NCBI GenBank assembly: GCA_947568835.1
Contig: OX387605.1
Location: 23,315,775 to 23,379,774, forward strand
DNA from: Protonemura montana
Lineage: Eukaryota > Arthropoda > Insecta > Plecoptera > Nemouridae
DNA: 64,000 nucleotides
Direction of reading: 5' to 3'
The notes beneath the pieces were generated by a model that worked only from the letters and a program-made list of their open reading frames with translations, was not told the DNA's origin and did not search any database. The position numbers were made by a program, and so were the translations under genes. Within the stretch, counting starts at the first letter, position 1. Each line of letters begins with the position of its first letter. Of this stretch, positions 9,491-54,655 are shown in pieces.

Positions 9491-9549
9491 TAGAATGGCG
9501 TCGGTGAATGAGTGGATGATAATGAGGATGATGATGAGCCTAATCTAGT
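9491..9549 (-). mobile_element. 5S-headed SINE family, copy D (short fragment)
   Basis: On the minus strand it reads CTAGATTAGGCTCATCATCA, then CTCATTATCATCC, CTCATTCACCGACGCCATT, matching the junction between the body and the tail of the other copies. Both ends are missing. Confidence 0.65.
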
Positions 9550-23743: not shown

Positions 23744-23926
23744 CTAAAACATAGATAGACAGTCGGCCTGAGAAGACTTAGGTTATGTACTATCACGATA
23801 CTTTAGTACAAGAAGTAAGGTGCAGTAGCCAGAAATTTACGTGTGGGGATGAATAAATTATTAAGAGCAAGTCAAGTAGGAGTAAATAGTTTAATATCTT
23901 CGATAGTAAAATAATCAAGTAATTAC
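23744..23926 (-). other. Likely 5' UTR intron of PSMA5
   Basis: On the minus strand a donor (CGAAG|GTAATT, GT at 23926-23925) and an acceptor (TATGTTTTAG) bracket 183 bases just before the start codon. The noncoding first exon would then end at 23927. This is splice-signal reading only. Confidence 0.5.
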
Positions 23927-24109
23927 CTTCGATTTTACCCGGTCAGTTCCAATCACTCAAAAACAAGCTAGCAAGTCACTTCAAAGATGGCGTCAAGCTT
24001 CACCGCCTGATAAATTTGACAGCTTACTACAGATTACAGCCTGCTAAATGGTACTGCGAGGACGTGAAGGTAGCGCCAGCGCCCGGCAATTTCAAACTAG
24101 AAATACAAA
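23927..24109. promoter_or_regulatory. Shared divergent promoter region of PSMA5 and ATXN10
   Basis: The start codons of PSMA5 (minus) and ATXN10 (plus) are 366 bases apart. If the PSMA5 UTR intron is real, about 180 bases hold both transcription starts. AAAGATGGCG at 23983-23992 resembles the YY1 site common in housekeeping promoters. No TATA box is evident. Confidence 0.6.
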
Positions 24110-27100
24110 ATGGCTGTAAATGGTGTGCAAAGTGGTCCACTGAACTGTAATTTTTCTAATATCATGCTTGATACTACAAAACAGATAAAACTGTGTTTGA
24201 TAGACGATGATCTTAGTGCTGTGATAACGCATCTAAAATTATTCACTTCCCACACGACCAAAGATGAGTTTAGGTAAGGTTTGAAATTACTTTTTTGGTA
24301 ACTTGGGTTATGTTGTGAGATTTTATTGAGACCCTAAGATAATTGTTGACCCAATTATTTTCTTGTTATAGGAATTGCGTGCCGGAAGACTCTTTGCAAG
24401 TACTAGCTCAAGTACTTCACAGAGTTTCGGGAAGAATACAGCACCCAATTGAAGATGCTGTCCAACAAGTAACTGCAGAATGTTTTCGCAGCTTGCGAAA
24501 TTCGTGTGTAGGAAGGCCAAATAACCAGAGTTACATTGCTAATCGGACCTCAGCGTTGGAAGATGCAAGCATTATTCTTCTAGGGTGCTTAAATCAGCAC
24601 AGTGTGTGCTATTCTGCGTGTGTATTAACCTGTGTTCAGTTTATCGGGAACATCGTAGTTTGTAATAAAGAGAACCAGGCTTTACTGTGGAATAAATACT
24701 ATGGGCTCTTAAGAACTTTAATCACAACCCGGACAAATATTGAGAAGTTAGGCAATTGTGCTGCAATGGTTGTATACAATATACTTTTAGGATGTCCCCA
24801 GCTAGTTGTTGAACATGATTTGAAACTTTTAGAAGCACTAATCGATCACGTGTTACTAGACTCGGAATTTGCGTCATTCGTCATCGAGCAGCTACTCCTC
24901 CGAGAAGGATACCTTTCTGCTATGTATCTTCAAGTATCGACCGACCGAAAACTTATAATCCTAGAATCTGCTCACTCGATTCTATCTCTAGCCGATACGA
25001 TATCTGGCGAGGACGGGAAACTCTCGGTGTCAGCCGTAACGTTTCTCGCGCAACAGCTGAAGGACCGCTCGGACTGTATTCTAAAAACAGTGGGCCACTA
25101 CGCTGAGGCGCTGGAGCCAACTGAAGTGGCCAAGCTTCTGGAAATAATATCCTCTGCATCAAGCAATAAGCCCTACATGGGAGAACTGCAGAAAGACATG
25201 TCTCTCTTTATTGACTGTGCTTGTAAGTGTACACCAAATTGATTGGTCATTCGTCAGCGAGAGATTTCTCTAATTGCTTTCATTGTGCTCTTATTACGTA
25301 TCAACGGAATATTAACTACATTGTCCGGTGATATGGTACCTAATTAATTAACAACCTTTCTGCATACTAATATAGTTTTAAAAAATTTAAAGAATTTGCC
25401 TATTTCTTAGTAGAATTAAGAAAGGTTTCAAAGTTTAGTTCAACTGTGTGCCAGAGTTTTGAAGCCATAGCAAAGTGGCTGTAATTTCCTAATCATCTGC
25501 TAGCTATTCGTCTAGTAATGTCATCGCTTATTACGTTCCAGTCTTGCTACGCAACATCCATGACCTCGGCAAGTCGGGCGAGAACAGCTTCACGAGCATC
25601 CAGCGCCTCTCTGCGCTGACACCTGCAGGCGGGGACGCGGTGGTGCAGGCCCACCCTGCATTCGGATTCAAGTGCAACCTTGTGCGCTTGCTCGGAAACC
25701 TGTGTTGGCGGTATCGGCCTAACCAAGATCAAGTGAGTGGCTGTTCATAATGCGTCGGGTCGGTCGTAGATTGCCTATGGTGCCAGGATAGTTCTCTTGA
25801 ACCAAATCATCGGGAAGTATCAGGTAGATATTGGTATCTAGTTATTCAGATAGCTCATCTAAATGGAGTAAGTGCTACCTAAGCAGATGCTAGAAAACCT
25901 GGTCTTTGTTAGTAGGGAACCTAGTACTACATGACCTTGCACAGCTATAAGGAAGATAGCATATACTCTATTGACATTGTGAATGCAGGTTCTAGTAGGA
26001 TCCAGTGAAGCAGATTTACTGATTGATGATTTTAACGCTTGAAAGTGACTGGGTTGTATATCTATAATACTCAGCGTTACAAATAAGTTTAAAAGCTGGT
26101 TTTAGTCGCGTTTAATATGAAACATCGTTGATATCTTTTAGCGACATAAACAGCTTTTTAAAAAAATTACTAAGGGGATTGTTGTTAGCGTAAAAAAATT
26201 GTGGGAACTTTTGTCAAAGTCAGAGAGAATCATTTTTATTGCACATTGAACAATGTTGGACATTGTTGGTATTTTAACTAATATCAAGACTAAGATTAAT
26301 ATCAATCAAGGAAAAGAGGGCTAAAGAACAAAACTCAGCTGGTTTCTCAGCTGGTTGCTGCATCTTTCGCAACTTGTTATTTTTTTCAGTAAATTGACGT
26401 TCAATCACTCCTCCTTCACTTCAGTTTACACAGAATTAAATTGTGTATTACAAATTTCATACTGAAACTAGTGAGGGAACAATTTTACTGGATATATATT
26501 TTGATAAAATACTTGATTGTATTCTTTGTGACTGTGAGTTTGACTTTACCTTTACTTGTCATTTTATTATGGGTAATAAATCAATTGAGCTCAAATATCC
26601 TTGATGAAGTAAGACTCAAGGAAAAAGTTCAATCAGTTTCTAAGATAAGAAACAAGGGTTTGATTTATACTTTTGACATGTTTGACATATTTTGAGTGCT
26701 TTGCTGTAAAGTTCTTTTATTTAACCCCCTCACAAGATTTAAAATTTATAATTTTAATGATGAAAGATAAGTAACAAGATCTTTGTCTCAAGGGTTGTTA
26801 AAACATGCGTCAAATTATAGTGGAGAGAGCTTTTAACGTTTCAATAGGAATTTGGGGAGCTTTTCTAAATTCACTTTTATTTGGCAGAGCTAAAAATTTT
26901 CTTACCACAGAACTATTTGCTTACATCCACGGCTTGCCAGTTTCCAGTACCTTTGCATACAAAAGGTATATTTGGCTGGCGGCATTCAATACTAGTGACA
27001 TTTAAAACTGGTGAAGGAACTTAAAATGAGGATTTCATTTCATGAAAAGAACTGGTTGTCTTCCTGATGTGTCCAGGAATAAAATAATGCTATTCTGGAG

Positions 27101-30100
27101 ACATATGCTAATACCCTCTTTGAAACCAGCCTAAGGCCATGACGTTCATGATCTTCCTACAGGAATGCATTATAATTTATAATTATACAGCACTGTTCAG
27201 TAGGTTCCTATGAAACGTGGAAATCGACATTAGAGCAAATCTGTTTGCACGGCTTTATTCTCACGTGATGCTAATTCTACGTGTTACTAATAAATTACTC
27301 AAATAATTATCCTGCAGGAAATTTGTGGGAAACTCAGAGAAACTTATTTTTTGCTGTCGCCTTCGGTTTCCTTAAGAAGTAATAGGGTTGAGTAATTTGC
27401 AATTTTTTATTACATCTACAATACTGATCTTGAGTGAGTAACAAGTTTGCAGACATCTTACATATCTAATTCAAAATAAAATTATTGTTTTTAATGGTGG
27501 TTAAATGAGTAAAAAACTCTGTTCAAGTTTCAAAGTTGAAACCTCACCAGTATAAACAATTTTGATAGCAATAAGTTGTTATACCAGATCCTATAGCACT
27601 TTCAGAAATGTTAGTCTTATCTCCATCAGACAAATAGTTTCGATAAAACCGAAGTCGGTGTAATTCAGGATGCGGTGCCAAATTACGTACTGTAGGTCCT
27701 GACGGCGAGTCTGGTGAGTCGCTCGGACTCGTTGTCGGTAGCTCCTCTAAACAGCAGAGTGGGGAGACCCATGACTCAACTTAACTAGCATTTAGTCTTT
27801 TGTTAATTAGTTTCACCCAGTCACAAATTTATCCAGTTAACATTTGCAGCATTTTATAACAGACTAAATATTTCAATTAGAAATCACTTTGGATCAAGAA
27901 ATTATTTTCCTCGATTCAATTTAACGAGCGTTCACATTTTGGGGTTTCAAATGACTTCTATAATGTCATGATGTCAATTACTTTTGCTAACTCAACACTT
28001 ACTAAACACTTAACACTTATGTTGATTCACCGCTGTGTAGAGATAGTATTTTGAAAGAATTATCTTTAATTATGTTGGGGTATTTATAGCATAGACTAGG
28101 CCTAACCAACGCAATGGGTTGTTCATTTAAATTTTTGAAGATCTGATCGAAATTGGGATTTATATGCCAATCAGTAAATTGGTTCAGCATCACAAGCAAC
28201 AACTCATGCAAATAAGAACAACGAATCCGTCTTGGATCTCGTCTCGCATCACACAGTTTGCTGCAAAGAAAGAGTACATTTGTTCTGGGAGGTATGCAAC
28301 AATACTACCATGCATGCACGGTGGGTTGCATAACTTCAAACTGCTAGGTTTGCCGAGCAAGCCAAAATTAAAACTGATTCCGTAATCTCTTAAAAAAAAT
28401 GTTCCCTTGGCAGTATTATTGTTTTGGTTATGCCTGTTGTTCCGGACAGAACAGGTGACCATTTTGGAACGCGGATTAATTCCTCCCCCTCCCCATAATT
28501 TTTTATACATGGGGGGGGGGGGTCATCCCCCATTAATATCAGGACGGACAAGGGTCAATCAGTCAAGTTGGCAAACTCCAGGAGTAAATATTTTGCCAAA
28601 AGAGTGGAATTCCGCCAGACTGGGCCTCGTTGTGATGTAGGAAATCCCCACATTACTATGATCTGACCAACACCCCGGCCCGCCAACCACGATCGCACCG
28701 AAGTGCTCCCTTCGCTAAGCGGCGCCGGCCGGGGCTAACGCCTTCGCGGCGCGGTACTTTCTACCCGGTGTCCGAGGACCTTTCCCAGGGCTTGGCCCCG
28801 TAGTGAGGATTGGTGGAACTCCGTGACTGCCAAGGCGCTGCCGCTCGGGGTATATCCACCGGCCGGCCGGCAGAACGCTTGTGAACTACCGCATCGGGAA
28901 AATGTTTTTCAAGATTTTCTCGGGCAGTCTGGAGAAAAACTTTTGGTAGTGTTGATGTCTGTATACTTTTCCGCAGCTAGTGGTGTATTTTTTTGTACGT
29001 TTTCCATTTTTTTTGTAAAACGTATGTAGTTGGACGCAGTCGAGGTTGACCGTTTTTTTTTGGTTTTTTTCAATTAGTGTTGCGAAAGAGCGCGTTGATA
29101 AATACGATTTTTTTTTTTTTCGCTTCTAGCATAATTCTCATATTTTTTACCAATTTCAGAAGAAAGTACATAATTAATTGGTTGTAATTGGGAGCGATAA
29201 ACTAGTTTTCAACTAAGTTGACTCGCAGTTAACTTTTAAATTGGCTTTTTTCACAAACAATTTGTGTTTTTCAACGCACTTCTTATTAATTTTACAAAAA
29301 AACACCCCAATACCGAGGGAAAAATAAATAATTTTGCACCAAAAATAACTGAAACGATACGAAAGCTATATTGGATTTGCCTGGCCACATCCTGTTATTG
29401 AGTGACCGCAGCACGTGCTTGTCTTGCCCACAGGTTCGTGATCTGGACTGCATCCCGTTGCTGTTGGACTGCTGTAACATGGACGCCCGGAATCCTTGTA
29501 TCCTTGCTGAAAGCCGGTCACCTACCCGTTTATTGTTTATTTCACGATGGGCCAATGTCATACGAGTCATAAATGTACTAGATATTAATTTGCCCATCCC
29601 GGCCCCCGGCGCCTACTCTACCCAGGCTCAAAGTCCGGGTCCATGCATCCACCATGTGCTTCCCTATATGCTATGTTGACCCACATAGCATATAGGCGCC
29701 GTTCAGTGATTTTCAATCTCAGATTTGTCAACCCCTAACGCTTTCCCGAAACATAAATTCGACTTTTTCTTGGAAATCTCAATTAACTAGTATTTAGCCA
29801 AATTATTTTATCTGTATTTTTGGGTAAAATGTGTAAAGTGTCTATGGGTAAAACTCTTCGCCTATTAAAACGTCAAGATAATTATAACGCATGGACTATT
29901 TTGTATTTGAGTAAAAAAATGTGAAAATATTCTGGTTCATTCCTTGACAGTGATAATCACAGTGATCATCCAGTGGGTAGTGATGGCCGTAAGGAACTTG
30001 TGTGACGGCAACCCTGCCAACCAGGCAGTGATCGCCGCCATGAACCGACAGGGAGGCGTCAGCTCATCAATCCTGGCAGAGATGGGACTCAGCCTACGCG

Positions 30101-30141
30101 ATGGCGAAGACGGCATCAACATCGCCCCACTGTCCAGGTAG
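24110..30141 (+). CDS. ATXN10: Ataxin-10, complete
   Basis: Five coding exons: 24110-24273, 24372-25222, 25542-25732, 29434-29497 and 29963-30141 (stop TAG), joining in frame to 482 residues; human ataxin-10 has 475. Helical repeat segments include AECFRSLRNSCVGRPNNQSYI (vertebrate: ECFRCLRNAC..NQ..I) and FIGNIVVCNKENQALLW. The conserved C-terminal domain spans about residues 380-470: AFGFKCNLVRLLGNLCWR, NQDQVRDLDCIPLLLDCCNM and QWVVMAVRNLCDGNPANQAVI. Ataxin-10 is a cytoplasmic armadillo-like protein linked to neuronal survival, cytokinesis and cilia in vertebrates. Exon 2 is unusually large (851 bases) for this gene. The last exon has two usable in-frame acceptors, at 29951 and 29963; the second gives the better match to the vertebrate protein and is used here. 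The gene runs divergently from PSMA5 and head-to-tail with Wnt7. Confidence 0.95.
25733..29433 (+). other. Intron 3 of ATXN10
   Basis: A 3.7-kb intron (donor GTGAGT, acceptor TTGCCCACAG), mostly AT-rich and empty. It contains a run of 12 G at 28511-28522 and a sharply GC-rich block at about 28660-28880. No exon is evident. Confidence 0.8.
28660..28880. other. GC-rich block inside ATXN10 intron 3
   Basis: About 220 bases rich in GGCGCCGG, CCGGCCGG and GGCCCCG strings stand out from AT-rich flanks. No family was recognised; it may be part of a repeat. It is not the same sequence as the GC-rich block at 3838. Confidence 0.35.
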
Positions 30142-32329
30142 CAGCCCGGCCAGGCACGCTCTCTGGATACAAAACTGTGATTGTCCGAGTGGAAGTGGCA
30201 AGAAGATATTTTATATAACCGTGTGGATTTTGTCTATTTTTTTTTAAAGAGAAATAAGTTTGAAAACTATGACATGGATTCTATACGACGAATTATTGCA
30301 AGATATGAGGAAGATATTGGCGTCCGGTATAGCTAGTGTATTTGTTTATCTATTTTTTGTCTTCGCGAGTTCGGTGAAGAGACTCTTTTCCTCGCAGTGC
30401 AAGTGTTTTTTTTTTTTTTGGTGAAATCGTGACAATTTGTTGACATCGCAATGAGTCCTGACTCCTGACTTCAACTGGGTTCGGTTTTGTGCTGTGATTC
30501 GTGAAGCGTTCGAACGATTCTGGACAGTTTGGCCGTGTGGACAATTTCGTTGACGACAGGCGATGCTGGGATTGGCGTCGTGTAGCGTCGCGACGCTGGG
30601 GTGAGTACTTTTGAACCGCTTGTTATATTCACTTTGATTTCATGAGGATGACCTCACGCTGCCATAATATGGCATGTCTGCGGCTCAATTTTAGAACCGG
30701 ATAAAGGCAGCCGAGGCGATTCCATGCGATTATCGATGCGACTCCTCTAAGAATTTCGTTTGCACTTGCAAAACGTTTTGAAATTCATGGCCATGTATTT
30801 GACAGCCCCTCTTTGCCAGTGCAACCATTGGCAGCGCAAAGAATCCCCCAGACTTTGACTTTTGACGGAACTGTTTGTGTTTGGCAATTGGACTGTTCAA
30901 ATTTCAGGCCACCGAGGGCACAATTCGTTTATTGAATTCTCTCAAAATTGCGAACCAGTGGTCGGGGGGTTGACGGGGGCGGAGCACCACGACTGGTAGT
31001 TCATTATATATAGGTACTTGGATCGCTTGTGGAGTATTTTGCAGATGAAATTCAGCTGAAATTGTTCAAGTTTGATTTAGTTTCTCGGTCAATACAAAGT
31101 TTGTTTTATTCCAACTAAAGATAAGCATCGACCGCAATAAGTTCAATATTTAATATAAGGTTACTTGAGAGTTATAAGGCACCGACTCTTCGGCACCCGC
31201 ATGTCCTCAGCATAATGTGGGTGTCAAAAAGGCGTTGGCTCTCACTCTCCACTTCTCTCTCACTCACAAAAATGTAATTAAAAACTTTATTGTTTGATTT
31301 GACTAACACATCCGCTGCGCAGCCTGATTTGGTTCGGTCCATCACACATGGCCTCTATGTTGTGCTGCACATGATTGTGGTCCTCGCTCTCATCTCATCA
31401 AGCTAATGGGAGGATGTTGTCTGGACCACCGGTCATATAACAGAGAACTCGTGTTATGGGCGGCGATACCTCAACGCGACCGGCTGCCGAATGGTTGCAG
31501 TTCGAGATATCGGCGAGGCAATAATATCTCGAATTTATCCATAGCCGAAGATGGTGTTACACGAGACGAGATATCTGTGTCTTGCTTTCCAATGACAAGG
31601 CAGTCGTTGTTGTCTTTGTCTGTCGCCCTCGCCATTCCGACAGACGTTCAGGGTTGATTGGAGTGCACGGGAAATAGCCGCCATGTTCTGCTGCGGTGTA
31701 CTTTGCAGACAGTTATTAGAGTATTGCTCGAAGTTGGACTTGGACTTTGGTGACGGGCGTCGTTATTTGAAGCGAGTTACCGCACGGGAATTGTCTTGTG
31801 CGCACGTCACTTTGTTGGAACATCGTTTTGTTTGATTCATTCTCGGAGTAACTTTGCTTTACAGCTGAAACCGATTCTCCTGGTCGCCATAAACCAGGCA
31901 AAAGTTGGATACATTTGCACTAAACTTAAGTGAACCAGGAATGGGAAATGCCGGCGATAATTTTCCTATTTCCCGTTGACCCAGTTAAACAAGTCAGTGT
32001 TAGGTATATATCAACGCCGATATTTTCATTTGACGTCACAACGAAATACAGAATTCGTCCCTTGTGGGTGATGTATTCAGAATCTGGTTCCGTCCGGCTA
32101 CAAACTCATCTAAAACACACATTTCCTCGCATTTGCTCCGACCAAACGAATTCAGTTCGAATCAGATTCAGGCGCGATTGACAACAAATAAAACTCAATG
32201 GTACATAATATCGACCACTGCTTTGTCCGGTAAAGAAACAATTTGGAGAATGCTTCGAACTTCTTCTTATCAATCGCTTCTTCCCGCCTCCACCTCCAGT
32301 TTGGAGCTAGTTTATCGTCGGTCCTCCGC

Positions 32330-32402
32330 GGCTCATGCGTAGGACGCACTGCACATTTCGATGGAACATTAGGGAGGCCGGTTCGAGTCCTGGTCGGATC
32401 CT
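32330..32402 (+). mobile_element. Possible tRNA-headed SINE head
   Basis: GGCTCATGCGTAGGACGC followed 40 bases later by GGCCGGTTCGAGTCCTGG, a good pol III B box (GGTTCGAGTCC). No cloverleaf closes properly, so it looks like a tRNA-derived repeat head rather than a tRNA gene. Ends were not found. Confidence 0.35.
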
Positions 32403-34080
32403 TAAACATATACCAATAAATACTTTTGTAATAAATACAGTGTGGGTGCGAGTCACGGAGAAATAATGAAGACATGACAATAAACTATAGATGCTGATAA
32501 TTAGGGAAATAAATGCCGATAACGAGGATGTTGGTATTCAGCGTTTTCCTCACGGTGCGTTTGATTTGTGTGTTGCTTGGTTTATGTGCGTTGAGTTAAT
32601 TCATGAAGGGTCGGGTGACCCTCTTCTTCGTGTTCGTGCCAGTGGGAAACAAAGAATCGAGGGTGGATGGTTTTGGGAAAGCTAGTTAGGGTCTAGCCAG
32701 TTTCAATCGTGCTTATTGATTGAAAATTAAAACTATGGAAATTTGATATTCAAAACTTGAATGCTGTTTTGTCATGCGACGTTGAGGGTTTGCTGTTGAT
32801 TCAAGCACGCTGCACAGCTATTTGAAAAAAAAAACATTTATTTTGCGAGGCATACAATCATACGCTTTGGTACATTTCGACAGCGCTGAAAGTCGATTTA
32901 AAATTATTATTTGACTCCCATTTATTGGACATCGACGGAACCAATCCATTTGCACTCCTAATCTTCACCCAAGCTACAGGCTGAATATCCGAACCAAGTT
33001 TCTTGCCTTTGCAGATTGTCTCTCCTTCCATCTGATGCCGTTACTCTTCGTTTGATGACATGCATCCTCCACGGTCCATGACATTATTGGCTAGATCTGG
33101 AAACTACAAAGCTATCACAGATCACAGCATCAGAGAGCTCGAGCAATAAATATAGTATTTCTACCTCGCTGAAACTTCGAGCACCAACTATTGTTTATCA
33201 CCATGGCATTATTCTATATTGCGACGTCGCTAAAATAGCAAGACTGACATGATTTTATTGGTGCATCGTGGTTCGCATGGTGATCGATCTATGTCCTATC
33301 GACAAACAATCTTTCTCAGGGAAGTTCTTACCGGTAAGACGACAGCACTGCCTGCACATAGCATTATAATACAATCGTTTACCTATACAGCTGTATCATA
33401 CTCTGCGTGTAATATGCTCATCAAGGCACATTCAGTCAACCATCGCTGAACTATATTGACGCTGTTCACGTTCAAATACGAATACACACGCCACTTAAAT
33501 TTATGCTTGACAATGACAACGTAGGTACAGAGCGCAATCCTCGAGAAGCGCAATCCTCGAGAGACGATAATTCCCCAAGATAGCGCGCAAGAATATGAAC
33601 CCTGAGGAGTAATCATCTTATTTACTACTACACCAAGAAAAAGTTTCACCCACACACACATTCATATGAACATACGCCTTATTCTTAGCCAGCGTCAATT
33701 ACTTACTGAAACAGGTACTGTGTGTGTACCTCGCTAGACGTGATTGCTAGGTGTAGGTACAGCAGCTACATTGTGCAAGGCGCAACGCTTCTAATGGGCA
33801 TCGCGCTTCTTTCTAAACGCCACCAACATAAGGTGCTCCTACACTGGCTATTTATTATCGCATGCCTCTATACACTGTTCAGCGAGAGAACACACTTTTC
33901 CGGCAGGGGCTCCTCCGGTCGTTTTGGGGTGGCACGTGGGCTAACTGTCATTTTAAATGAAGCTACAAATCTCTGCTGATGACCACCACTTTCCTTTTTC
34001 TCTAAAACTTTGATCGTGCCAAGATGTTTTGTTTTTTGAGCTATTATATAAGTGGAAAGGGGAGCTGGACTGGAAAAATG

Positions 34081-34155
34081 TGCAACCGAACTGGGATACG
34101 AACCCGGGACCTCACAATTGCCGGTCCGGTTCTTTACCAACTGAGCTATCCGGGC
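34081..34155 (-). mobile_element. tRNA-derived SINE head
   Basis: On the minus strand GCCCGGATAGCTCAGTTGGT gives an A box, and CCGGGTTCGTATCCCAG gives a B box and T arm at the right distance. The anticodon arm is distorted and the 3' end does not pair with the 5' acceptor strand, so this is not a working tRNA. The sequence continues past it, through CCAGTCCAGCTCCCCTTTCC, as expected of a SINE body. The 3' end of the element is unknown. Confidence 0.6.
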
Positions 34156-37100
34156 ACAAATATTCCAGTTTTCGCGGGGTGGGATAAGTTATTCCCTTCA
34201 GGGGAAGAGGCCGAGGCGACTCGTATCGACGAGTACCTAGCAACTCTAGGACGAGATGGTAATTCAATGGCCACTTGATAGTTTTAGGGAGTATTGGAGA
34301 ATTATAAAAAGTATTTTGAAATTCAGTTTTTAGCAAAACTGGGTGTAGCAGAAGGCTTGTTTTCTCATGCGGGCTACATTAAAACCTTAGTGAAAGAAAA
34401 GCGCACTTGCTGGAGCTATACGGATCAGGAAACTACCCACCACGCTTTGGGCCTATACCATCATGAAAAAAAATCAAAAAAATCTACCTTACGTCCAGAT
34501 TTAGAGCACGACGATGAAATGTCCATGGAAATTGCGCTTGATGTGCATGCCGATGCTAGTTCAAACCGTTTTCGAGCGCCTCTACTTCCGCATTGACCGT
34601 GCGACGATGCTAACAATTAGCTTGTATGTCAGGTCGTTCGGCCAGGTGATCGGCGTAAAGCGATCGCCGATCAAGAATCGATTAATCGCGTCCGCGGAAT
34701 GCGCTAGTTAGTTCTTGCATGATCAACGTCATCATACACCAGACCATGGACTCACCTCATCGAAGCGCTGTCACGGCGACTCGGTGAATTAAGTAGGGGC
34801 GGAACGGGTCGCCCTTTCATGCAGATCACTCGCGTATAAATCACGCGTGTAGAGTGACAACGCTATGAGGCGACTTAATCGAGCGACAATTCTTAAGAAA
34901 TGTGTCCGCATATTAATCACATTTGCGTATAATGTACACCAATGGAGCATTGTCGTCGATGGACGTAACCACATGGATCAAAGCTAGCACTGGATTGCCT
35001 TTAATCGTAGACACAATGCAACGGCACCTAAACACTGTACTAAATGATAGGTATATCCTATAATACCCCACGTTTTCCCATACAAAATACTTTAATCTCC
35101 GTAACGAAACCATCAAAATTACCTCTTTCCTTCACATGTAGGGGCTGCACTTTCCGTGATCAGTTTCCCAATTTCATTAGCTTTACCTGGCATGATACCC
35201 TACAATTAAATTCACACCATGTCTTATCTATCCGTCGAACTAATTAATTGCTTCTTAGAAAGAGGCGTTCGAGTGGTGCAGGTATGGGATGGGATGCTGG
35301 ATGCTTGTACGGCTTACACGCATGGCCGACGACGCGTCCCGAGGCGCTCGGATCGGGTTAAGTGCGTGTCCCGTGCGTGCATGCGTGCGTGGGAGACGAA
35401 CAGGCAGCGTGGCACCTCCACCGACCACGGCCTAATGACTAAACTTTCGACGTGAAGATCACGTCTCAGGGCGCCTTCCATGACACCTGACGAATCGCTA
35501 CGTTAATATTTCATGAGAAGTATCTACTCTACAAAAAAACAATTATTAATCACGGCTAACATCTATGCAGGTGCATGCACTCTATGCAATGCATCTAAAA
35601 TTTATCTTCTTTACATGCCATAACAATTATTTGCTGTCAGTTTTATGCTTGAGCTACTTAATAAAGTATTGATAATAATGAGGCATTTTCTGGAACGCTA
35701 AACAAACTCGGTGTGCCGCTTGCCGCCCCTCCTGTTTGCGCGAGTAAATTGTGGAATGCAATCCATGTAAATCATGTTCATATTACGCTATTTGCCGCCC
35801 CTTTTCTCAAATAAACATCTCCGCTTTCAATGGGGTGCTGATGCGAGTTCCCCTCGGGAATGACTCGGTGCGCAGCCGGTGAACGAGTCTAATTGCTGCA
35901 AGGACCGGGCGAGGTCCCCATTCACCACCGAGTGGCAATTCGGAAATTGTATGCATCATCCCGGCCGACAGTAGCCCGTTTCACTCATGTTCCTCGGCGC
36001 GGTGTACATTTTCACCGTGATCTCTTACATCACCACGATCACGTCAGCGAGCAGTGTTTGGTCCATGGACGGGCGTCTATTGGCCGTCGAATTCCCCACT
36101 TTCGGTGCCGCACTTTTTCCACAGCCAATTGGACGGATCGCACGGCCACGTGACCACTTTCTCGACGTGCTCGTGTGAAAACGGCCGCTAGGGCGGGAAA
36201 TCGCGGGCGCGGCTTTTACTTCCCTGTATTATCTTGACTGCACTAACATTGCACACGAGTTTCCTGGCGCGGCCAACGCTTTCGAGCCTTGCGCGCGAGA
36301 TAGCACGAGTTATTGCCGGATAAACGCCCTGCATTTCATATTATTATTTCACGAGAAGAGAATATCCCGGCGTCGCGTATGCCTTAAAACATGCGAACGT
36401 GTTTTGCGGTGAATATCTTTGAATAAAATCAGCGGGCATAAGAGTTAGTGACAGGAGCAGACTGTCTGACAATCGTCCTACGTCTCTCGACGGGCTGTCT
36501 TGAGTGCCGATGCGACTCGGGCGAGACGAAGATGATAGACAAGAGGACGCCGAAGAAGCGAGGAAGCCGGTGAGTGGACTGGCACGTTGGGGGCCGAACT
36601 CTGAGGTCCGAAGTACGACGTCCCGCAGACGACAGCCTCCTCCGGGTACCGGCCCGGCCCGGCCCGCCGCCGTCGTCGACGGACTCACCTTGCCACAACT
36701 TTCTCAGGTTGGCACTCAGTCGCTAACCGGCACTCGGTCAATGTAGCCGTCTTACGTTCATCTTCGGCCGGACGATCAACGCGCGCCGCTCCCGCACGAA
36801 AGACGCTGAAAGAACTCGCAGGAAAATTTTACCAGATATTTATCGCTTTCTTATTCTCAACGGTGACGGCTGTTTGGAATTTTGAATCGCGTTTATTGAA
36901 AATATTACGACACTCGGCGAGAAGTTACAGGTGCGAACGCGCGAGTTGCACCGCTGCGAAAACATAGCCGGCGATAAATCAGGCGTGTAATTAATTATTA
37001 CACCGACCGAAAGGGTGGAGGCTCGCTAGTTGATTTCGAACGGTTTCTCGCACAGTAGTCCGAACAGTTTGCGACTGGAAGAATACGTGATTAGTTTCCT

Positions 37101-37961
37101 TGACTCGGAACGAGTTTCCAGTGCCTCGTGTTCTTTCCAGCGTGCGACGGCTCGTTAGGGGTAGCTGGTTTTGCATCGTGCAGACCAGAGTTTCGCATCC
37201 AGAGGAGCGTTTTTCCACTATCCAGTCCCGATCAATTACCGATCCGAGTGATGGTTATTACTTCGCGCAATATGCGGAACCAGAAACGGCTTCACCGAGT
37301 GAAAAAGCGCAAAACAGCAACATAGTGATATCGTGCGAACAGGTCGCGACTGGCTCTCCGATCGCGAGCTACACCTGTGCTTCAAGAGTGCGGTCTTCAG
37401 TGCATCAGCTGCATCTTCTGCTCACCGATAAGCTGGCCAGCGCCGCGTGTGTCCGGCGACCGTACCATCAAGTCGCTCTTTAGACCTAATAACCACCAAT
37501 CAATGTGTTTACTGACTTTTTTAACAGCGTCGAGGCCAATCAAGCCGGTCGCGTGAACTTACCGATCGGTCCAGCTCCTAATAACTCAGCGGGACGTTTT
37601 TGCAGCGATTCATTTTAGTTCGGAAACGCAAGTGTTGGTACATTTAGTGTGTGTTTAGGGTGTAGTCTGGGCTGGTGCGAAAGAATCGAGCTATTTTCGT
37701 GTACATACATATAGAGTTTTATGATGTGTTGATGTCGGTATTGCGTGTGTTGAGATAGTTGAAATGATCGACCGACCTTCCCGTCGTTGTCGATACTGCA
37801 GCGCTCGCTCGAACCACGGGAACAAAAGTGTTTAATTATCTCTTCGTGACTGCTGCAATTTCGATACATTTTATCAGCCATCCAACATTTTATTACTGAG
37901 TGTCACGGTTGTCGCGCGCACAGCGTATCTGAGGGACTGCGTCGCGGTGATCGTCGGAGGT

Positions 37962-38032
37962 ATGGGCCGTCTAGGCGCCGGAGATTTCGACGCGTGAAGT
38001 CGACGCCGACGCCGACGCCATGTGATGACATT
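37962..38032 (+). promoter_or_regulatory. Upstream AUGs in the Wnt7 leader
   Basis: Three upstream ATGs precede the main start: 37962 opens an 11-codon frame ending TGA at 37995-37997; 38020-38025 is a minimal ATG-TGA start-stop; and 38025 opens a frame that overlaps the main start out of phase. They matter only if transcription starts upstream of 37962. Confidence 0.5.
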
Positions 38033-41000
38033 ATGCACCCGCCTCTCAGTCGCTCAAGCCAACGGCTCAGGGTACTCGTTCTTCTGGCGGCCGTCGCACT
38101 GCTGCAATCAGCCACTAATTTCAGGTGAATATTGTTGCACTGTCTTTTTACTTTGGTGAACAGTGAAGTGGATACCGCTCCAGTTGCTAGAATATTTTAC
38201 GGTTCAAGACGGTTAGGGATGCAAGTTACTTGACGCTTTCTAGCTATAACCGTGAGCGTCTGAGTTCATGCGACGATCAAGTCAGAGGGATTTTTTTTTT
38301 TAAATCCATAAGATGGCTGACATTTTTTTAATAAAACTGAAGAAAAGTACGTACATGCACAAAGTTGAATGTCCTCCAATTTGCCTGGTTCACGTGAAAC
38401 TGCTGCTGCGATACAAGCTAAAAAATAGACGTATGGTCGGCGTGCCCGCGTATCATACCAATTCGGGAGTTTTTTTTTGCGGGTCCGATTAGCATAATTT
38501 TGTCCACGTCGCAATGACATTGCCCGGTACGAGCGATGACTGAAATCCAAGATAGAGATACACTTCCACAATGATTGATTGTCGCTCGGCGGAATGCAAA
38601 TGCTTTCAATTCATCAAAACCAACTGATGACCGGTCGACTATTCGAGTGCGTGCTACCTGAAACACAAATCGATTGTCATCTCCCCTGTCGAAACTCTGT
38701 CATGAAAGCCGAGCTCGCTGCTTCCACCGGAAACCACGACGTATTCCCAATCAAGCAATTAACCTGCGGCTAGCTTTTCAGCCCGATGCCGATAACGTCA
38801 TCGTCTTGCTTTGATTTATGGTCCCTAACATGCAACTCGAGCAAACAGCTGACAGTCGTTGCGGTCCGTACTTCAGCAGCCTCTTGGGCACGGGATGACA
38901 CGCGCGATTTCATCTCACGACTGCTCTGCTATTGTCAGAACGCCTGCCTCGTTGCTGTACCAAGATCTTGAGATCGACGGACGATATAACTGGGCTAGAT
39001 ATCACTTCATCAACCCCCTGGATGCATTCATCCCGCAAGAGTTGTATGCTAACGGACCTTTGACACGTCGTGTTTAACGACGCGTTAACGCAAATTTAAA
39101 CGCGAACTGGTATCGCAGTCTCCGATTTGGATTTGTTTAGGACCTCAATGGAGTGATTCTACATTTGGAGACAAGGGTTAGGTGCTAAAAAGCGTTCATA
39201 TTGTTTCATTCGAAGCATGGTTTATTGCACGAGTATCTCCTCGTGGCCGAGTACAATGGAGGCATGCACCACGTAATTGCATTCATGCTTCGCGATTGGT
39301 CCCGACCGCGAAATTGGTGCAAAGATAATCGACCTGTGCGCTCGGCGAGCGAATTATTTCGCTTGTGGATCATTTGATATTTATACACGCACCTAAAGCT
39401 ATTGGTTTTCGAATAAGGTTTACCTTGAATTAATTCGTTAGATTATCCAGCTCGTCGCAGATACGAGCTCGGAATGACGTAATTACCCGATCTCATCGAC
39501 CGTCGCTCGGGTGTAGTACGTTCTGCATTTGTGCAGGACGCACGGGACAACTGTTTTCTGCAAATCCTTAGCTCCTTGCGAATTCAATTTTGCAAGCCAA
39601 CAAACTCTTGATAACAGGTTTATTGCGAATCTACCGGCCGGGCCGGGCGCAATTCATTTTTAAGACACGCGTTTTTTTTTCTATAAAACTTCTAAACAAA
39701 AAAACGTTCTCTTCCTTGACACTGCAAGCATTGCCCGGTTACCCTCCGTTGCAAGAAAGGATCGTACAGTGCGTACGTTTCTGACTTTCAAGCCAAACTA
39801 CAACCATCTCGATCATCTTAAATTGAACGAGTGATACACTTATCTAGGCGATCCTCACCGGGTGTTTAGGTTGTAGGAGGATTCCATTCAACAGGCCCAG
39901 TTGTCGAAAGAGTGCGAAGTCCCGCGCCGGGTGCATCGCTAAGTTGTACTCGGCCACTGGATAGACTTTTCTCTTCGATGTTATTTGATTGGAAGTGTAA
40001 GCCCATGGACAATTTCGTGTAATCAAATTTGATACTCGTTGTCACGGATCGAATTCGAATGCCACAAGAAGTCGGAGGTTCGGAGGTATTCAAAGAGTTG
40101 TGAATATTTATTTTCGTTCGATGATACAAATAGAAAATAAGTGGAGCGTGACAACGCCGTTGTTTCATGACACCCAGGAATTCCCTCCGAGTCTTCGATG
40201 ATTTCACAGAATCTTCGACTTACAGACGAATGCAAGCTCTCTGCTCGAGAAAACCTAAGCCACGCTACATATCACGGGCAGTTCGAACGCTGCCTATATT
40301 TAGCAAAAATCTAACCACTGCAGAAACCAGGAGTTTTTGCCTCCATTCCGCGCGGCCAGAATCCGCCCGCGGTCGAATTCCCAGCATCTTGCCCGCGCGG
40401 TGCCAACTCAACGCCGAAGGTTCGCTCGCCAGATAACATCGCCATAAAAGGCCCTCACCGCGTGCTCTCGATTTGATACTTTTTAGTTTTTACACAGAAA
40501 ATAATTAAGCCTCCAGCCGCTTACCAAACCGTGGATATTCCAGTTCAAATCTGGTGTGTACCTAATCGCTGATTACATCGAATTATGTAAATATTATGGC
40601 GGATAAGTGATAAAAACTCATACCCGACGATGATGACGATGGATACACCGACGGAGGGCGATTCCATGGCGTCGGCTCCAGGTATTCAGGGGCGTCGTGT
40701 GTCATTTCGGGCGTCGCCCGATGCCCTGATTACTGTTGTTAAACGAGCCGACGAGGACGCCGCAGGATCGATCTCACGCCAGCGCCAGCCTGGCATCATC
40801 CTCGGCGACGTCAGCGGAGGCTGCAGACGAGCCCGTACCTTTTAGTTAGCGCCCGCGTATCTGCCATGTTCGATCACAGCAGACTCAACGGGCGGACTGG
40901 CTTGCTACAAATTGCCTGTTTACGAGGCCAAGTCATGCGTTTTTCTCACAAATGCCCCGATATCTGACTGCGTGGATACGGAATGTCTTGTATGACAACT

Positions 41001-47000: not shown

Positions 47001-50000
47001 AACGGGCAGAACCTAGACGGGTTGGCAAGTCGGCATCGGACAGCTTTATGCACTGACTTGGTCGACATATCGTTCAACATCGATCGATCGATGCAATACG
47101 CTTGCAAATATTGTCGGTTTAGCCATCTCTTGCATGGGAATCGCCTCGTTATCGCGCGCCGAAATCTACCAGCACATGGGCGATTTCCCCGATGCTTGCT
47201 TGCAGTCTTGTTGGTCGTTTGTGATTAACACAAGGGAGTTTGTTCAAATTATTCATTGCTGTTTTGTGAATGATTAACAGCTCTTAAAATGCATGAAAAA
47301 AATCCAAAGAGAGTAGAAAATATGTCTTGAACTTCCTGGGGCTATTTGAAAATTTAATTATATTATGTACACTTTTTTTGATAAATGTAAGTTGACTGAA
47401 AGTTAATTATTTGCCAAGTCTCATAACACAACTACAGGGTGTACGAGCTCAGTGAAAAGTGTTATAAATTTGTCATGTTTCAATATTACGACGTGATAAA
47501 TAATGAACAAGTGCACTTTAATGGGATAATAATTATAATCCACATTCGTTATTGGCGTAAAATTACGGTGAACTTAATTCATCTTGGTCGAGATAAAACG
47601 GTTTGAATTATCATCTTAGAGTGGCTCGGCGACGAAACTTATAGAGTGGCTCGGCGACAAAACTTATACCAAAGCAATTACTCTAGTTTTTCAAAGACAC
47701 TTAACTGTATGTGTACCTAGTACCTTCTTGTTTCACTTCAAACTAATCATTTATGCAAGCCGGTTCTAATTGCATAACTCAATAATTAGAGTATGTACAT
47801 CTCATTACTGGATCGTTTCATTACCTGTCTAGACAGAGTCTGCAAATTAGCCAAAAGCTCCTGGAAAATTACGATGTTGTGCTAAAAACATATGCAAACA
47901 CTTTTTGTCGCCGAGTTGTTGGTGTATGTTGGTGGCGAATATCATTGTAGGTCCTGCAATCTACGATGACATGCCCCACCAATGTCAACTCGACCAAAAG
48001 TTCGACCTCACCCAGTCAATTCTGGTCACGTGCACAAACTCAAAGTCACAAAACTAGTGCTCGCTGCTGCTGTTAGAAGTCAAAGTTCCCGACGCTACGA
48101 ACGGGTGTCACAGCCCGGCGCCTCCACCATGAGCCCGCCAGTGAACAGGATCTGGTCTCAGATCGGCTCGCACGAAAGATCTTTATTTTCAAGTCGAGAC
48201 TGAGCCCTGTGTACGCCACACGGCGACGTGTTATGCCCTTAAAGGGTCACAAATCGTGGGACACGTAATACCAACAGAGCGAAACCGCAAAACCGTCACC
48301 TTCGTCAACCTGCGGTCCTGAAAACCTTCGAGACATGCTACTTGAGAGTTATCATGGTTCCCTCCTTCTCGCGCGCCTCGCCGGTCTTCTCTTTGTATCC
48401 ACAAATTATTACAGAAGAATATTGCTATGTTGTTTTGGATTTTGAGTCAATAAAGCCCTGCGGTGATAGCTCTGTGTCTGCGTTTTCCCAAAGTTTTTGG
48501 AACGAAACTATGGAACTCTTCGTTTTTTTCGCCCGGGTTAGGCTCTTTGGTTTATATTTTCTTTAAAATTATGTTTACATTTTAATATCAGTAGTTTTAA
48601 CCTTCAAGCTCTTCTTTGGGAGTTCTTACGAAGTCCGTAACAATACAAACGTTTCGTACGTCGCTACGAGATCAATTGGAGTCTTACGAAATACCACAGC
48701 TTAGACCACGATTCAGTCACTTCCACTTTTCCCATTGTCAAGCGGATGTTCTGTATCTCAAATATAAGCGGCCTCTATCAACTCTAATTCCAAACTATAA
48801 AAAAATCAACCTCCAAGATAAGTGTACTTTGACTCATCCTGCACATCCTCGATTAATGAATTCCTCTTTGGAGCCGATCCAGCGTTACCGATGGTCGATC
48901 AATGATCGTCTTGCCCATTTTAGAAGTCCATATGGAGCACTCCGAGTCCTGCAGAGTCCCAGCGTTCATGGAGGGCACTCCCCACCTCGTGCCGCCCTTT
49001 CAACGCAGCTCAGTCTGGGCTGACACTTAATTGAGAAGCGCGGTCCTTGCGGACTAACGCGACAAGTGCGCCCTAATGAACTTGTTGTCTAGCGCTTTGC
49101 TCGCCGACAGGAACCACTGGTCTGGTCTGCGGTCTGGTTAACAACGTGCCAATATGGCCTGCCGGTTATCACTGTTATGCCTTGCCATGTGTTCGAATTA
49201 ATGGTCGACAGCAATCAGGTAAACAATGATTATCGCCGATTTGGTGTCTTTCCAGAACTGTGAACTAGTTTTTGACATGTGGCTTCGTTCGATTTCGAAT
49301 GTCGCCAATGTCCTCGCGATCCAAAACATCCTATTTCTTGATTTGTGGTCATTGCGTTCCGTTCACCTGTCTCGGTCTGCTTTTCTCAATGAATCCGGTC
49401 GCCCGATGGCATCCAGCAAAGAAATAACACTTACTTTTAAAACAAGGCTAGGTTGTTTTTGTGGGTGTTGCTGGCATAAAACCTGGCACTCATTAATATT
49501 ACTTATATTGAGCTATACAACTGGCGAGATTTATTTGCTTAATTTATAATTAAATCAATCCAATTGGTGCAAAGTATGTGTGGGACTGCAAGTGTATGCA
49601 TAGTTGGATACTTATCGTATAGCAGGTACTTAGGGTACGCGTTCTGACCGGTGTACATTGCCTGTGCTTTGCCCTTGTTCGGGGATATTCAAATAAGTCA
49701 ATTAAGAGCCACACGCAACGTGATTGATGGATGGCGCATTAGTGCGCCGGCGCCCACACTGCAAATGCTAGCCGGTAGAAATTCAGATTAAACACTCTTT
49801 CTATTCAAGATTGCTATTTAAAGGAGATGACCGTGGTAATTTTTCAGTTTCTCGTCTTTGTACATAACGAGCATCATTACACCACAAACAAGAATGCGTG
49901 GCATTCGCCATTCAATTTTATTAAAGGCACTTAGCAATGGGGCGATAAAAACTGAAATTGTTCGATATAGAAAATAATTGCAATACTTCTTGTCGATTTC

Positions 50001-53000
50001 CCAGCTGATACACGTGGAATTGACATCAGCTGGGCTGTACCTGTAAAGAAAGTCGTCGAGCCAGAAGACATTCGCGTGATTCGATCACCAAGCAACACAG
50101 TCCTCGAGTTACATGCTCTTAGAATCTTGTAAAACAACGTAATATTATAACAAATCGGCCTGTAATCTTCTAAGCACTTTCAAACCATGGGCATGCCTTT
50201 ATTATAATGGCAGACAGAGCATACTGCGTTACTATATAGCAATGAGTGGGTTTAGGCCTTTCTGTTCGGAGATCTATCATCGCAGACTCTTGAGACTTGC
50301 CCCGGTCTCTCCATGCACCCACGAGCTACCCTCTTAACGACATCATATCGTCCGCAGACTCATGCATCGACCGGATTGATTGCATTGACAAATCCTAGCC
50401 TCAAAGGCGTGGTGCTCAGCGACGCTCCACTATCTTGTATCACTAAGTGCTTTGTCTCGCTCACTATTTTTTTCATAGCGAAAGCCTCCATGATGTATTA
50501 TGTCTGTGGGAATGTAATTACGGGCACAATGGCGACTCATTAAAAGAGCGTTTTTGTTAATGAAGATGCCTGTCGGTTTGTGTAGTACCTGGTTTTCTGG
50601 GCATGTGCGTGGGGAGGTTGCTTTATGCCGGACTTAAAGGTGTCGTGTTCCGCTGCAGGTGACATTTGGAACATCTACGTGGAATGCGTTCGACTCGGTG
50701 TATGCCCGATCAGGTCCTGAGAGTGAGACGCAGATCTGCATGCGCGGAAGTGTGGATGGTTGTTGATTGAAATTTACCTGCGTATTAAGGTGGTCTAACA
50801 AGGGAGACTAGCGCAAACACCCGCCGCGGGATACGCTTGAAATCGTTCGGCAAAGTGTGAAGAACTTGCGTGTAACTGGCGATGTCGCTTTACACGCATT
50901 TGCATAGCGAAGCCAATATTTCTATCGAGTCGAAAACGTGAGATGGTAATAAAACAGAATGATTAAACCGCGAAAGTTTAAAGACCAGTATTCAAATGTG
51001 TTCGTGTTAACCACCTAGACAGATATTTCCGAAAAAAAAACGGTACACCATAATTGTGACTAAAATAAGTTGCGATATTTTTCACGCGTCGTAAAAGAAA
51101 CGGATCGGTTTTAAGATTCTTTTTGAGTCGCTTCTATAAAATGTTCTGCCGAGTAACTTCGACTTGATGACGAGGACGAACTGTGCCGTGGCATCGCGCG
51201 CGCACGCGCCGACCGACGCTGGACGACGAATAGAGAAAATTATAATTGGACTCTAGAACCAACCAAGACTTTATGCTCTTTCCCATTTTGGTATAACTTT
51301 CGTAATAATTAGGAAACAACTCATCTGCATGGGTCCATGATTGATGCTGGTTTACTATCGTCTCACCCACATCGACCAGAACAGCCTCGCTTAGAGCTCT
51401 CTTCTCGGCGAGTGAATCATTGTTATGATTTCCCTCGCTCAGAGCACTTTACAGTCTACAATTTGTTGTCCTACCTTCTATCGTTGTATCTTGCCCGCTT
51501 GATATAATTAATCTTTGCGGCTTGGTTCAAAGCTAATTAAAATGGCATGCAGCAGTCCTCGCGGCAATTCCTTGTATGACTTGGCCTAGTTTATTCGCAC
51601 ATTCGATCTGCATGAGTAGTGGGAGGCTGCGTCGGATGAAATGTACCATCTCTTTCGACGGCGGCCCTCGTGAAGCAAAGGTCCCGCAAGACCAGCCGTC
51701 CCATGAGGAATCTTCACGGAAGAAAGCGCACTTAATTAAGCCTCTTGATTTCAGGCTTAGGCTGCCGTGGCTAAGGGTAGGTAACCGCTCGGCTTTGCCC
51801 CCATTGATCCTCGACGAGGATTAGCTTTTTACAGCGGGGTCGCTTTGTGTCCAGCAGCTCAGGGTGCCTGGGTGCCATAGACCGCCGGAATCTAGATTAT
51901 GCTCTATGCGCTTGAGAAGGGATCATTACAGGTATATACAGCTTAGTATATAAAGGTTTTACCTGTAGCGGAGAAACAGAGGAAAACACTCACCGAACGT
52001 TTTTTGGGAAGATTTTTTTTTATGGTCGTTTGCCACCCAATGATCTGTTTACATAAATCACCTGGCAATGATCAGGACTCAGGAATGTACGACAAGAATT
52101 TCTGCTCTACGCTCATGTCAATTGCCGGCTGCCCGTTAATCCTCGATTTAAAAAAAAACAACAAGGCACAAACGCCTGCAGTTTAATGCGCGCTTTCCAC
52201 GAAACCATGTAAATCATCGTTAACACGAGACGAAAGCAATCAAACACTATGATTGATTTCATTCCATCTTCAATGTAGCCCGAACCACCCACCTTATAAG
52301 TAACCATACCATGCAGGAACGCATGGCAGCCATGCACTCGTTTACAGCCGCAGATATTAACGCAGATCTTTCCACCGTTGGTCGTTCGTTCGTCTCCTAT
52401 TAGCCTCGCTCGTAAACTCTTGAAAGGTGATTAAAATTAATGGCGTCCATTTAACCAAGGGGTTGTGATTCGTGTGACGTGCTCGATTATTTATGGCTAT
52501 CTCTCTCTTTCAGAGTCTGACGCAGATCTTATCGAGTGAGAGGGTTGATTTGTGAATCCTTTTAAGCTTGAATCGTGTCGCATTAGGGGGAATTAACACG
52601 TGTCGGTATCCATCTTAATCAGTATGCCAGCCTTAATAGCATGGTATCAATTACATCCAAGTTGTGAGAGAGTCATATGTGAAGGCGAAGAAAGTCCCAC
52701 GATGACTGTGGCCCGATATCTCAACCGTACTATCATTGTCCAGCCTCCTCCAGCAATTGAAGCCCGCCTCATTTGGTACTCCATTCCCTAGCGGCGGACA
52801 TGGTCGAAACTTAGCCGGCTACATTGCCACACAGACCGCAGATTCGTGGCATTATCTCTTCGACGCATCTTGTGTCCGGCAGTTGAATACTGTTTCGCGA
52901 CCGCTCTGTTAACACGGATTCCCACGTGAGCAGCCGTGTTCTGCGGCGGCGCAGTGGCGCAGCGGGCGGTTTTGCCCAAGCCGGCAGCCGGTTGCCGAGC

Positions 53001-54655
53001 TACGGTCGTTAGGTCGCTATCAGCGCCTGTCCCACGTCATTGCTTGTCATGGACCCTGTCCGGGACCCGGTGGACACACCCTCGGCGGCACGTTATCTTC
53101 ATCGTATCTCCCCGTAACACGGGTGACGATGCGTCGGGCCGAGCTGTTAGTCGATATCGGATTGCCATTCGGTCGGCACTCTGGAACCGTGCGGAGGTCG
53201 GAAAGATGCTTGAAAGACGGCTGATTCGGTATCATGTGCTCGGACTCGCTGTATGACCACGTGACGGCATGGTTTTGATTAAGGACATCTTGAGAGCGTC
53301 AGGCATCTATTCATATATTAGCATTATTGGCCTAATTAAACCACTTCATTTTTGTTTTCAATATTCGTCGAGCAAATATTACAAATACAGGGAAAGTCCG
53401 GAAACTTCAATGGACGCAGATTGCAGAAAAGCAGTTTTTATAAGGGTCGAAAGGTTCGTGGGGAAACATCGTCTAGGCGTATTAGGATGAAATCTTTTTG
53501 AAATTACAAACGCTTGCAATGCGCGGGATATTTTATTATTAAAATTAAAATTGATATTTGATATTGATAAATTGATATTTAAATTGATGGCCAAACGGGG
53601 CATCTCTCAAATTTTTGAGACGGTTATAGTGTTAATAATCATAAAATCGGCTAGGCGCTGCTAGGCTTTGCACGGGAGAGTTCGATGCACGACAAGCGTT
53701 CGATCGTGCGTTTCTACGCCCAATACGCTTCCAGCATCGCCGACTTCGATCCGCCGTTGAAACAACGCCGATGAGAACTCCCCAAGGCACAGTTGCCCCA
53801 ACCGACGGCATCGCGACACCAGCGAGCTGCGAGCCTTTCCCGACATACCATTGCTGATGGTACCGCAGAGAATTCCCCGCGCCACTCAAACACAAGGAAA
53901 TACTCTACTGCGATAAAACCAGTAGCCTAATGGAATATCGCCGATAAATTGCTGCGTGGTGCAGCGAATCAGCTATGCGGTAATTGGCGCTAGCCGTGCG
54001 CAGGATGACGGTGATAGACGACGCCTGCGCGCGACCCCCCTCCCCCCTCATTCCCTTCTCCATAGGACGACTGCATTATCGAACCTAGCAAGGCATTGTT
54101 GCGACGAGAAGGGCATGCGGACAATGCGCAATGGGTACCTGGAATCAGAGGCAGACGTTTCAATTAAACGCGTAACGATGTGCAGTGACCACGCAGCAAG
54201 CGTCGATGTTTTGCGCTCTCAACTTCATCTCATGACTTCGTGTTCAGTAATTCCTTTTCAAAAAAAAAACGTTATGTTGTGCACTTCCTTTTCGTAGTTG
54301 CTTTTATTGGTTTCGTGTCCAACTGCGCGTTTAGTTTCTAATTTACTAGCACACAGATTAACAGTAAGATCACGGGTGACCAGATACTTGTGACCAATTT
54401 CTGACAATATTTTTGTCCTCTGTTACAGCGCCATGTCTAGCGCCGTGGCATTGGGGGCCCACGTGGTCTGCAGCCGCATCCCAGGGTTGACGTCGCGGCA
54501 GCGCGACATGTGCCGAGCGGCGCCCGACGCGATGGTGGCGCTCGGCGACGGAGTCAAGCTCGGCACCATGGAGTGCCAGGAGCAGTTCAAAAACCACCGA
54601 TGGAACTGCTCGGCCATCGGCAGTGGCGATGTCTTCGGACATGTCGTCGTTGTTG
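38033..54655 (+). CDS. Wnt7: Wnt7 secreted ligand, first two coding exons (3' part beyond the window)
   Basis: Exon 1 coding part 38033-38124 and exon 2 54429-54655; donors GTGAAT and GTAAGC, acceptor TCTGTTACAG. The join is in frame. Residues 1-30 (MHPPLSRSSQRLR then the VLVLLAAVALLQ core) form a signal peptide. Exon 2 reads MSSAVALGAHVVCSRIPGLT, QRDMCRAAPDA, ECQEQFKNHRWNCS, then GDVFGHVVVV. The vertebrate WNT7 equivalents are LSSVVALGA.IIC..IPGL, PDAI, ECQ.QFR.GRWNCS and VFG, so the Wnt7 subfamily (fly Wnt2) is well supported. C45, C59, C80 and C91 belong to the conserved Wnt cysteines; N90-C91-S92 is an N-glycosylation site. The next exon (usually beginning REAAFTYAI) was not found before the window ends. 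Wnt7 is a lipid-modified extracellular signal acting through Frizzled and LRP receptors. Confidence 0.93.
43358..43423. repeat. 11-bp minisatellite
   Basis: Six tandem units of GCCAGGGCATC; the first and last differ in their final bases. It lies in intron 1 of Wnt7. Confidence 0.92.
43901..43950 (+). promoter_or_regulatory. TATA box followed by a GAGA tract
   Basis: TATAAAAG at 43901-43908 is followed at once by GAGAGAGATG and a longer GAGAGAGAAAGAGAGAAAG tract. This looks like a core promoter with GAGA-factor sites, so it could be an internal Wnt7 promoter or chance. No good first exon was seen downstream. Confidence 0.3.
47617..47666. repeat. 25-bp tandem duplication
   Basis: Two adjacent copies of a 25-base unit beginning TAGAGTGGCTCGGCGAC, differing at one base. 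Confidence 0.85.

Follow-up and report, generated by a model that had tools for sequence, protein, structure and literature searches.

An insect copy of the ATXN10–Wnt7 gene pair in Protonemura montana and its possible partner LHFPL

The locus described here raises the question of why ATXN10, the gene for ataxin-10, and the developmental gene Wnt7 lie side by side in an insect genome. We analysed a 64-kb window, that is, the whole stretch of 64,000 nucleotides taken from contig OX387605.1 of Protonemura montana, in which the gene order is LHFPL (-), PSMA5 (-), ATXN10 (+), Wnt7 (+). The locus represents, in an insect, the ATXN10–Wnt7 microsyntenic pair known from earlier work, which forms part of the published Wnt5/7 block. 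A sequence-only reading of the window had proposed that the two genes are adjacent and head-to-tail, that they represent an ancient block, and that Wnt7 enhancers in or beyond ATXN10 may hold it together. Gene models confirm both the adjacency and the orientation, the two genes being on the + strand. The ancient block is also right, but it was published earlier (PMC8851819; PMC9750109; here and below, published work is cited from the accessible portions of each paper). Neither the linkage nor the enhancer-in-ATXN10 mechanism is new, both being already in print.

ATXN10 was modelled as five exons:

24110..24273, + strand: ATXN10 exon 1, with the start codon at 24110 (spliced model: open reading frame and GT donor)
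24372..25222, + strand: ATXN10 exon 2 (spliced model; tblastn with Anabrus ataxin-10, E 3e-78)
25542..25732, + strand: ATXN10 exon 3 (spliced model; tblastn with Anabrus ataxin-10, E 7e-24)
29434..29497, + strand: ATXN10 exon 4 (spliced model; tblastn with Anabrus ataxin-10, E 3e-9)
29963..30141, + strand: ATXN10 exon 5 and stop codon (spliced model; tblastn with Anabrus ataxin-10, E 1e-15)

The model (24110-30141, + strand) spans 6.0 kb, has GT/AG borders at 4/4 introns and encodes 482 amino acids. Exon 1 was not recovered by tblastn with Anabrus ataxin-10 and is called from the open frame and the splice site alone. The Pfam family Atx10homo_assoc matches residues 381-474, ending in exon 5, with 110 bits against a cut-off of 28.9. 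The closest database relative is the ataxin-10 of Anabrus simplex (54% identity over 89% of the query), and among 7,999 candidates scored, 103 matches were found at E ≤ 0.001, many of them named ataxin-10 and the rest unnamed or hypothetical. In a tree of 26 rows, the window sequence groups with Anabrus on a long branch (support 86/88). Taken with the top matches of Wnt7 and LHFPL, this narrows the arthropod-like source of the sequence-only reading to a likely polyneopteran insect. Judged by these protein comparisons, the gene is a true ATXN10 orthologue. Its introns measure 98, 319, 3,701 and 465 bp, and therefore any Wnt7 enhancers contained in them would sit mainly in intron 3. As a separate observation, this largest intron (3,701 bp) also houses an antisense RNase MRP RNA gene, which is described below.

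Two coding exons of Wnt7 fall within the window:

38033..38124, + strand: first coding exon of Wnt7, encoding the signal peptide (tblastn with the Cryptotermes and Anabrus proteins; splices to exon 2 in phase)
54429..54655, + strand: Wnt7 coding exon 2 (PDB Wnt-7a, 85 bits; Pfam wnt, 56.6 bits; Anabrus Wnt-7b)

Compared with solved Wnt structures in PDB, exon 2 scores highest with Wnt-7a (85 bits), followed by Wnt-5a (61) and Wnt-3 (52); on these scores, in which Wnt-7a leads Wnt-5a by 24 bits, a Wnt5 or Wnt3 identity was rejected. The top database match is Anabrus Wnt-7b with 88% identity, and some of the insect matches are named Wnt-2. From the sequence of exons 1-2, the gene is assigned to true Wnt7 and to no other Wnt. 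Exon 1 was located with Cryptotermes Wnt-7b (38054-38125, E 0.010) and Anabrus Wnt-7b (38066-38125, E 0.26), each of which is weak alone, given that a spurious match elsewhere in that search had E 0.086. Its translation from the ATG at 38033 is MHPPLSRSSQRLRVLVLLAAVALLQSATNF, and a GT donor after 38124 joins it in phase to exon 2 at 54429. This exon had escaped the sequence-only reading, which was correct on adjacency and wrong on the start of Wnt7: a 24-kb gap between the genes is ruled out by exon 1 at 38033-38124, the remainder being Wnt7 intron 1 (16.3 kb). Within the window, intron 2 extends over 9.3 kb. Neither motif search nor tblastn with full insect Wnt7 proteins revealed later Wnt exons in the window, and thus Wnt7 continues past its right end.

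The interval left between the two genes is accordingly short:

30142..38032, no strand: ATXN10–Wnt7 intergenic stretch, 7,891 bp from the ATXN10 stop codon to the Wnt7 start codon

There is no recognised protein gene in it, as judged from 12 of the 16 open reading frames of at least 90 amino acids, none of which reaches a Pfam cut-off, although short exons could escape such a search. The strongest near-miss is DUF3551 (19.6 bits against 26.5), and Wnt7 exon 1 falls inside one of the remaining 4/16 frames. A tRNA search found no tRNA gene in 30142-38032, and an Rfam search found no RNA gene there. In mouse, let-7 genes are located near Wnt7b (PMC7960620); in the present interval, Rfam showed neither a let-7 gene nor one for another RNA. 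Elsewhere in the window, a mir-56 match at 20197-20244 scores 31.9, far below its gathering score of 80.

The linkage is also kept in related species. We compared species named in two of the protein lists (50 species for ATXN10, 38 for LHFPL and 22 for Wnt7, those of LHFPL being taken throughout from the best 120 of 585 matches), and two contigs were taken as one if their listed sizes were identical to the base; the other named rows, inspected by eye, gave no further overlap. Schistocerca was excluded, its rows naming different species. ATXN10 and Wnt7 share a contig in 10/10 species (Anabrus, Bacillus rossius, Cardiocondyla, Cryptotermes, Homalodisca, Megalopta, Nomia, Periplaneta, Phymastichus and Zootermopsis), which speaks for more than chance. 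The LHFPL gene, whose linkage to Wnt7 the earlier reading had raised, lies on the Wnt7 contig in 8/8 species (Anabrus, Bacillus rossius, Cryptotermes, Lycorma, Menopon, Phymastichus, Ptiloglossa and Trichogramma brassicae). ATXN10 and LHFPL occur together in 7/11 and apart in Bicyclus, Frankliniella occidentalis, Manduca and Microctonus hyperodae, while four species carry all three genes on one contig. Most telling are the short contigs of Zootermopsis (0.47 Mb; ATXN10 and Wnt7) and Phymastichus (0.78 Mb; all three genes), to which those of Trichogramma (0.97 Mb; LHFPL and Wnt7) and Cryptotermes (1.53 Mb; all three) can be added. Spacing between ATXN10 and Wnt7 can be read only from the locus tags of the ant Cardiocondyla, which are two apart (PUN28_005119 and PUN28_005121). 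The tags of ATXN10 and LHFPL are 10 apart in Eretmocerus, and those of LHFPL and Wnt7 are 183 apart in Menopon despite their common contig, which speaks against tight linkage there. Multi-member clusters may show the contig of another member, and Manduca may span two assemblies. Having no control gene pair and many chromosome-sized contigs, the comparison supports linkage rather than adjacency.

As to what keeps the genes together, we favour the published reading of a genomic regulatory block with ATXN10 as a bystander of Wnt7, a reading whose regulatory part we infer and which we regard as probable, with some reserve. On this view the cis-regulatory DNA of Wnt7 would occupy its own long introns, the 7.9 kb upstream of it and perhaps also ATXN10, a housekeeping gene. 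Any break that separated the two genes would cut Wnt7 off from some of its enhancers, selection would act against such breaks, and ATXN10 would thus be retained as a bystander. Wnt7 enhancers within ATXN10 introns are plausible, and the hypothesis that atxn10 introns hold wnt7-targeting regulatory elements is found in PMC8851819, where it is credited to Irimia et al. 2012. This reading is supported because the two genes share a contig in all ten species, some of these contigs are short, the Cardiocondyla tags are close, and both conservation and the bystander hypothesis have been published. Several points weigh against it. ATXN10 introns total only ~4.6 kb, which leaves little room for enhancers, and more is offered by Wnt7 intron 1 (16.3 kb), the in-window part of intron 2 (9.3 kb) and the 7.9-kb gap. 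Moreover, the same-contig comparison carries neither distance nor orientation, and 7/10 of the ATXN10–Wnt7 contigs exceed 10 Mb. The linkage constraint on ATXN10 is described as relaxed compared with ERC1/2 and FBXL14 (PMC9750109), and predicted contacts of Wnt7b lie 3′ of the gene and are not placed in Atxn10 (PMC7960620).

The same relaxed linkage of ATXN10 (PMC9750109) fits a serious rival, namely that a slowly rearranging region kept the genes together passively, without any functional tie. Such passive retention would also suit the different contigs of ATXN10 and LHFPL in 4/11 species. It is further favoured by Wnt5 being unclustered with Wnt7 in Drosophila, Tribolium and Apis (PMC3003278), from which it follows that the neighbourhood does come apart. 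On the other hand, ATXN10 and Wnt7 remained on one contig in 10/10 species, three of these contigs being shorter than 1.6 Mb. We take the ten species to represent Orthoptera, Phasmatodea, Blattodea, Hemiptera and Hymenoptera, and count this breadth against passive retention, which we consider possible, if not the expected answer. The human genes ATXN10 and WNT7B are presumably convergent, and the head-to-tail pair found here differs from them; this would suit two separate chance joinings, one in this lineage and one among vertebrates, and it argues against a pair kept for co-expression or read-through, for which the common strand and the 7.9-kb distance could otherwise be invoked. Linkage in 10/10 insects and the published conservation across bilaterians (PMC8851819; PMC9750109) reduce chance to a hardly credible explanation. 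Shared transcription is very improbable as well: PMC8851819 takes the unrelated functions of the block genes as absence of a co-expression constraint, and when mouse Atxn10 was compared with Lnc-Rewind, a Wnt7b neighbour, no specific correlation of expression emerged (PMC7837680). In addition, ATXN10 is more likely to share a promoter with PSMA5, which lies head-to-head with it at a distance of 366 bp. The regulatory block remains our preferred account of the pair. Gene pairs that have remained neighbours from the bilaterian ancestor onwards are pointers to gene control over long distances, and ATXN10–Wnt7 is a published candidate; the compact insect version (ATXN10 6.0 kb, gap 7.9 kb) makes the enhancer-in-bystander idea amenable to a deletion test.

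Two genes precede ATXN10 in the window:

21170..23743, - strand: PSMA5 (proteasome alpha 5), five exons, stop codon at 21170 (Pfam Proteasome, 178 bits; splice model of 242 amino acids)
exons 19392-18969, 15036-14788 and 12455-12256, - strand: LHFPL3/4/5-type gene, 290 amino acids (splice model, tblastn, database matches)

PSMA5 lies between LHFPL and ATXN10; its subunit, which we take to be alpha 5, is assigned by likeness to the human protein. PSMA5 and ATXN10 are divergent (23743-24110), and the 366 bp between their start codons suggest a candidate bidirectional promoter. The LHFPL gene that the sequence-only reading had noticed is present and of the LHFPL3/4/5 type (12256-19392, - strand). 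Among solved structures its nearest relative is LHFPL4 (216 bits), then LHFPL5 (192 bits), and it shares 76% identity with a protein of the stick insect Bacillus rossius that bears the name LHFPL member 3. The top database matches are from Bacillus rossius, Cryptotermes and Anabrus, and among the best 120 of 585 matches those with a named species are mostly from arthropods. Short tandem repeats at 15050-15217, with units of 40 and 10 bp, directly adjoin the acceptor of LHFPL exon 2.

Its linkage within insects is supported as a modest extension of the known block, and LHFPL may be an insect partner of ATXN10–Wnt7. More tentatively, and with rather more doubt than confidence, LHFPL3/4/5 could be an unrecorded third member of a compact LHFPL-(PSMA5)-ATXN10-Wnt7 neighbourhood which would date at least to the polyneopteran/hemipteroid/hymenopteran ancestor, possibly to before insects, and would owe its cohesion to that same regulatory landscape of Wnt7. 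Should gene order bear this out, LHFPL would be a second bystander. In human, LHFPL4 and WNT7A presumably both lie at 3p25, a proximity that would be megabase-scale at best. A literature search, which did not extend to supplements and most subscription papers, found no published link of LHFPL to the ATXN10–Wnt7 block.

Several further features of the window were also noted. The RNA gene inside ATXN10 is the following:

28608-28821, - strand: RNase MRP RNA gene (Rfam RF00030, 65.3 bits against a gathering score of 50, full model length)

It contains GAAAG, fitting the GARAR loop motif, and is flanked by a TATA-like ATATA at -34 and TTTT at +221; a stretch at about -69 to -50 resembles, by eye, a proximal sequence element (PSE). 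Comparable RNA polymerase III signals have been described in the MRP genes of 26 insects (PMC4287351). One dispersed repeat family occurs at 3415-3664, 7435-7498, 8976-9033, 9494-9549, 10442-10767 and 61907-62293. The copies at 3618-3664 and 61907-61953 show a likeness, again by eye, to the 5S rRNA internal promoter region, of the kind known from 5S-derived short interspersed elements (SINEs); Rfam gave no 5S rRNA match in these repeats at E ≤ 0.05. An alanine/serine-rich open reading frame at 1634-2302 (+ strand) carries the motif NPYSIEELLKK and may represent a transcription factor's C-terminal exon; it has no Pfam match.

The published block with which this locus has to be compared comprises wnt5, wnt7, fbxl14, atxn10, erc1/2, cacna1d, cacna2d, ninj1/ninj2 and dcp1a/dcp1b (block 953 of PMC8851819; Robert et al. 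2022), and its pairs fbxl14-wnt5 and atxn10-wnt7 are attributed there to Irimia et al. 2012. Wnt5-Wnt7 clusters are known from Daphnia and, in similar form, Lottia (PMC3003278), as well as from amphioxus and lamprey (PMC6060547); ATXN10 is not mentioned in the accessible portions of PMC4244043 and PMC6060547. Only two genes of the block were recognised in our window, which ends inside Wnt7: Wnt5, fbxl14, erc and cacna were not recognised, the last three not having been searched by name. Conversely, LHFPL and PSMA5, which flank the pair here, are absent from the block 953 list and from the main text of PMC8851819, and LHFPL is likewise unmentioned in the main text of PMC9750109, in which the WNT5/7 block was described with SYNPHONI. 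The pair here is head-to-tail and 7.9 kb apart. What our locus has in common with the Wnt5-7 block of PMC8851819 is ATXN10 beside Wnt7, with no recognised protein gene between them and with unrelated functions. With the SYNPHONI block it shares ATXN10 as a member of bilaterian age, the gene having joined the WNT5/7 block in the bilaterian ancestor (PMC9750109).

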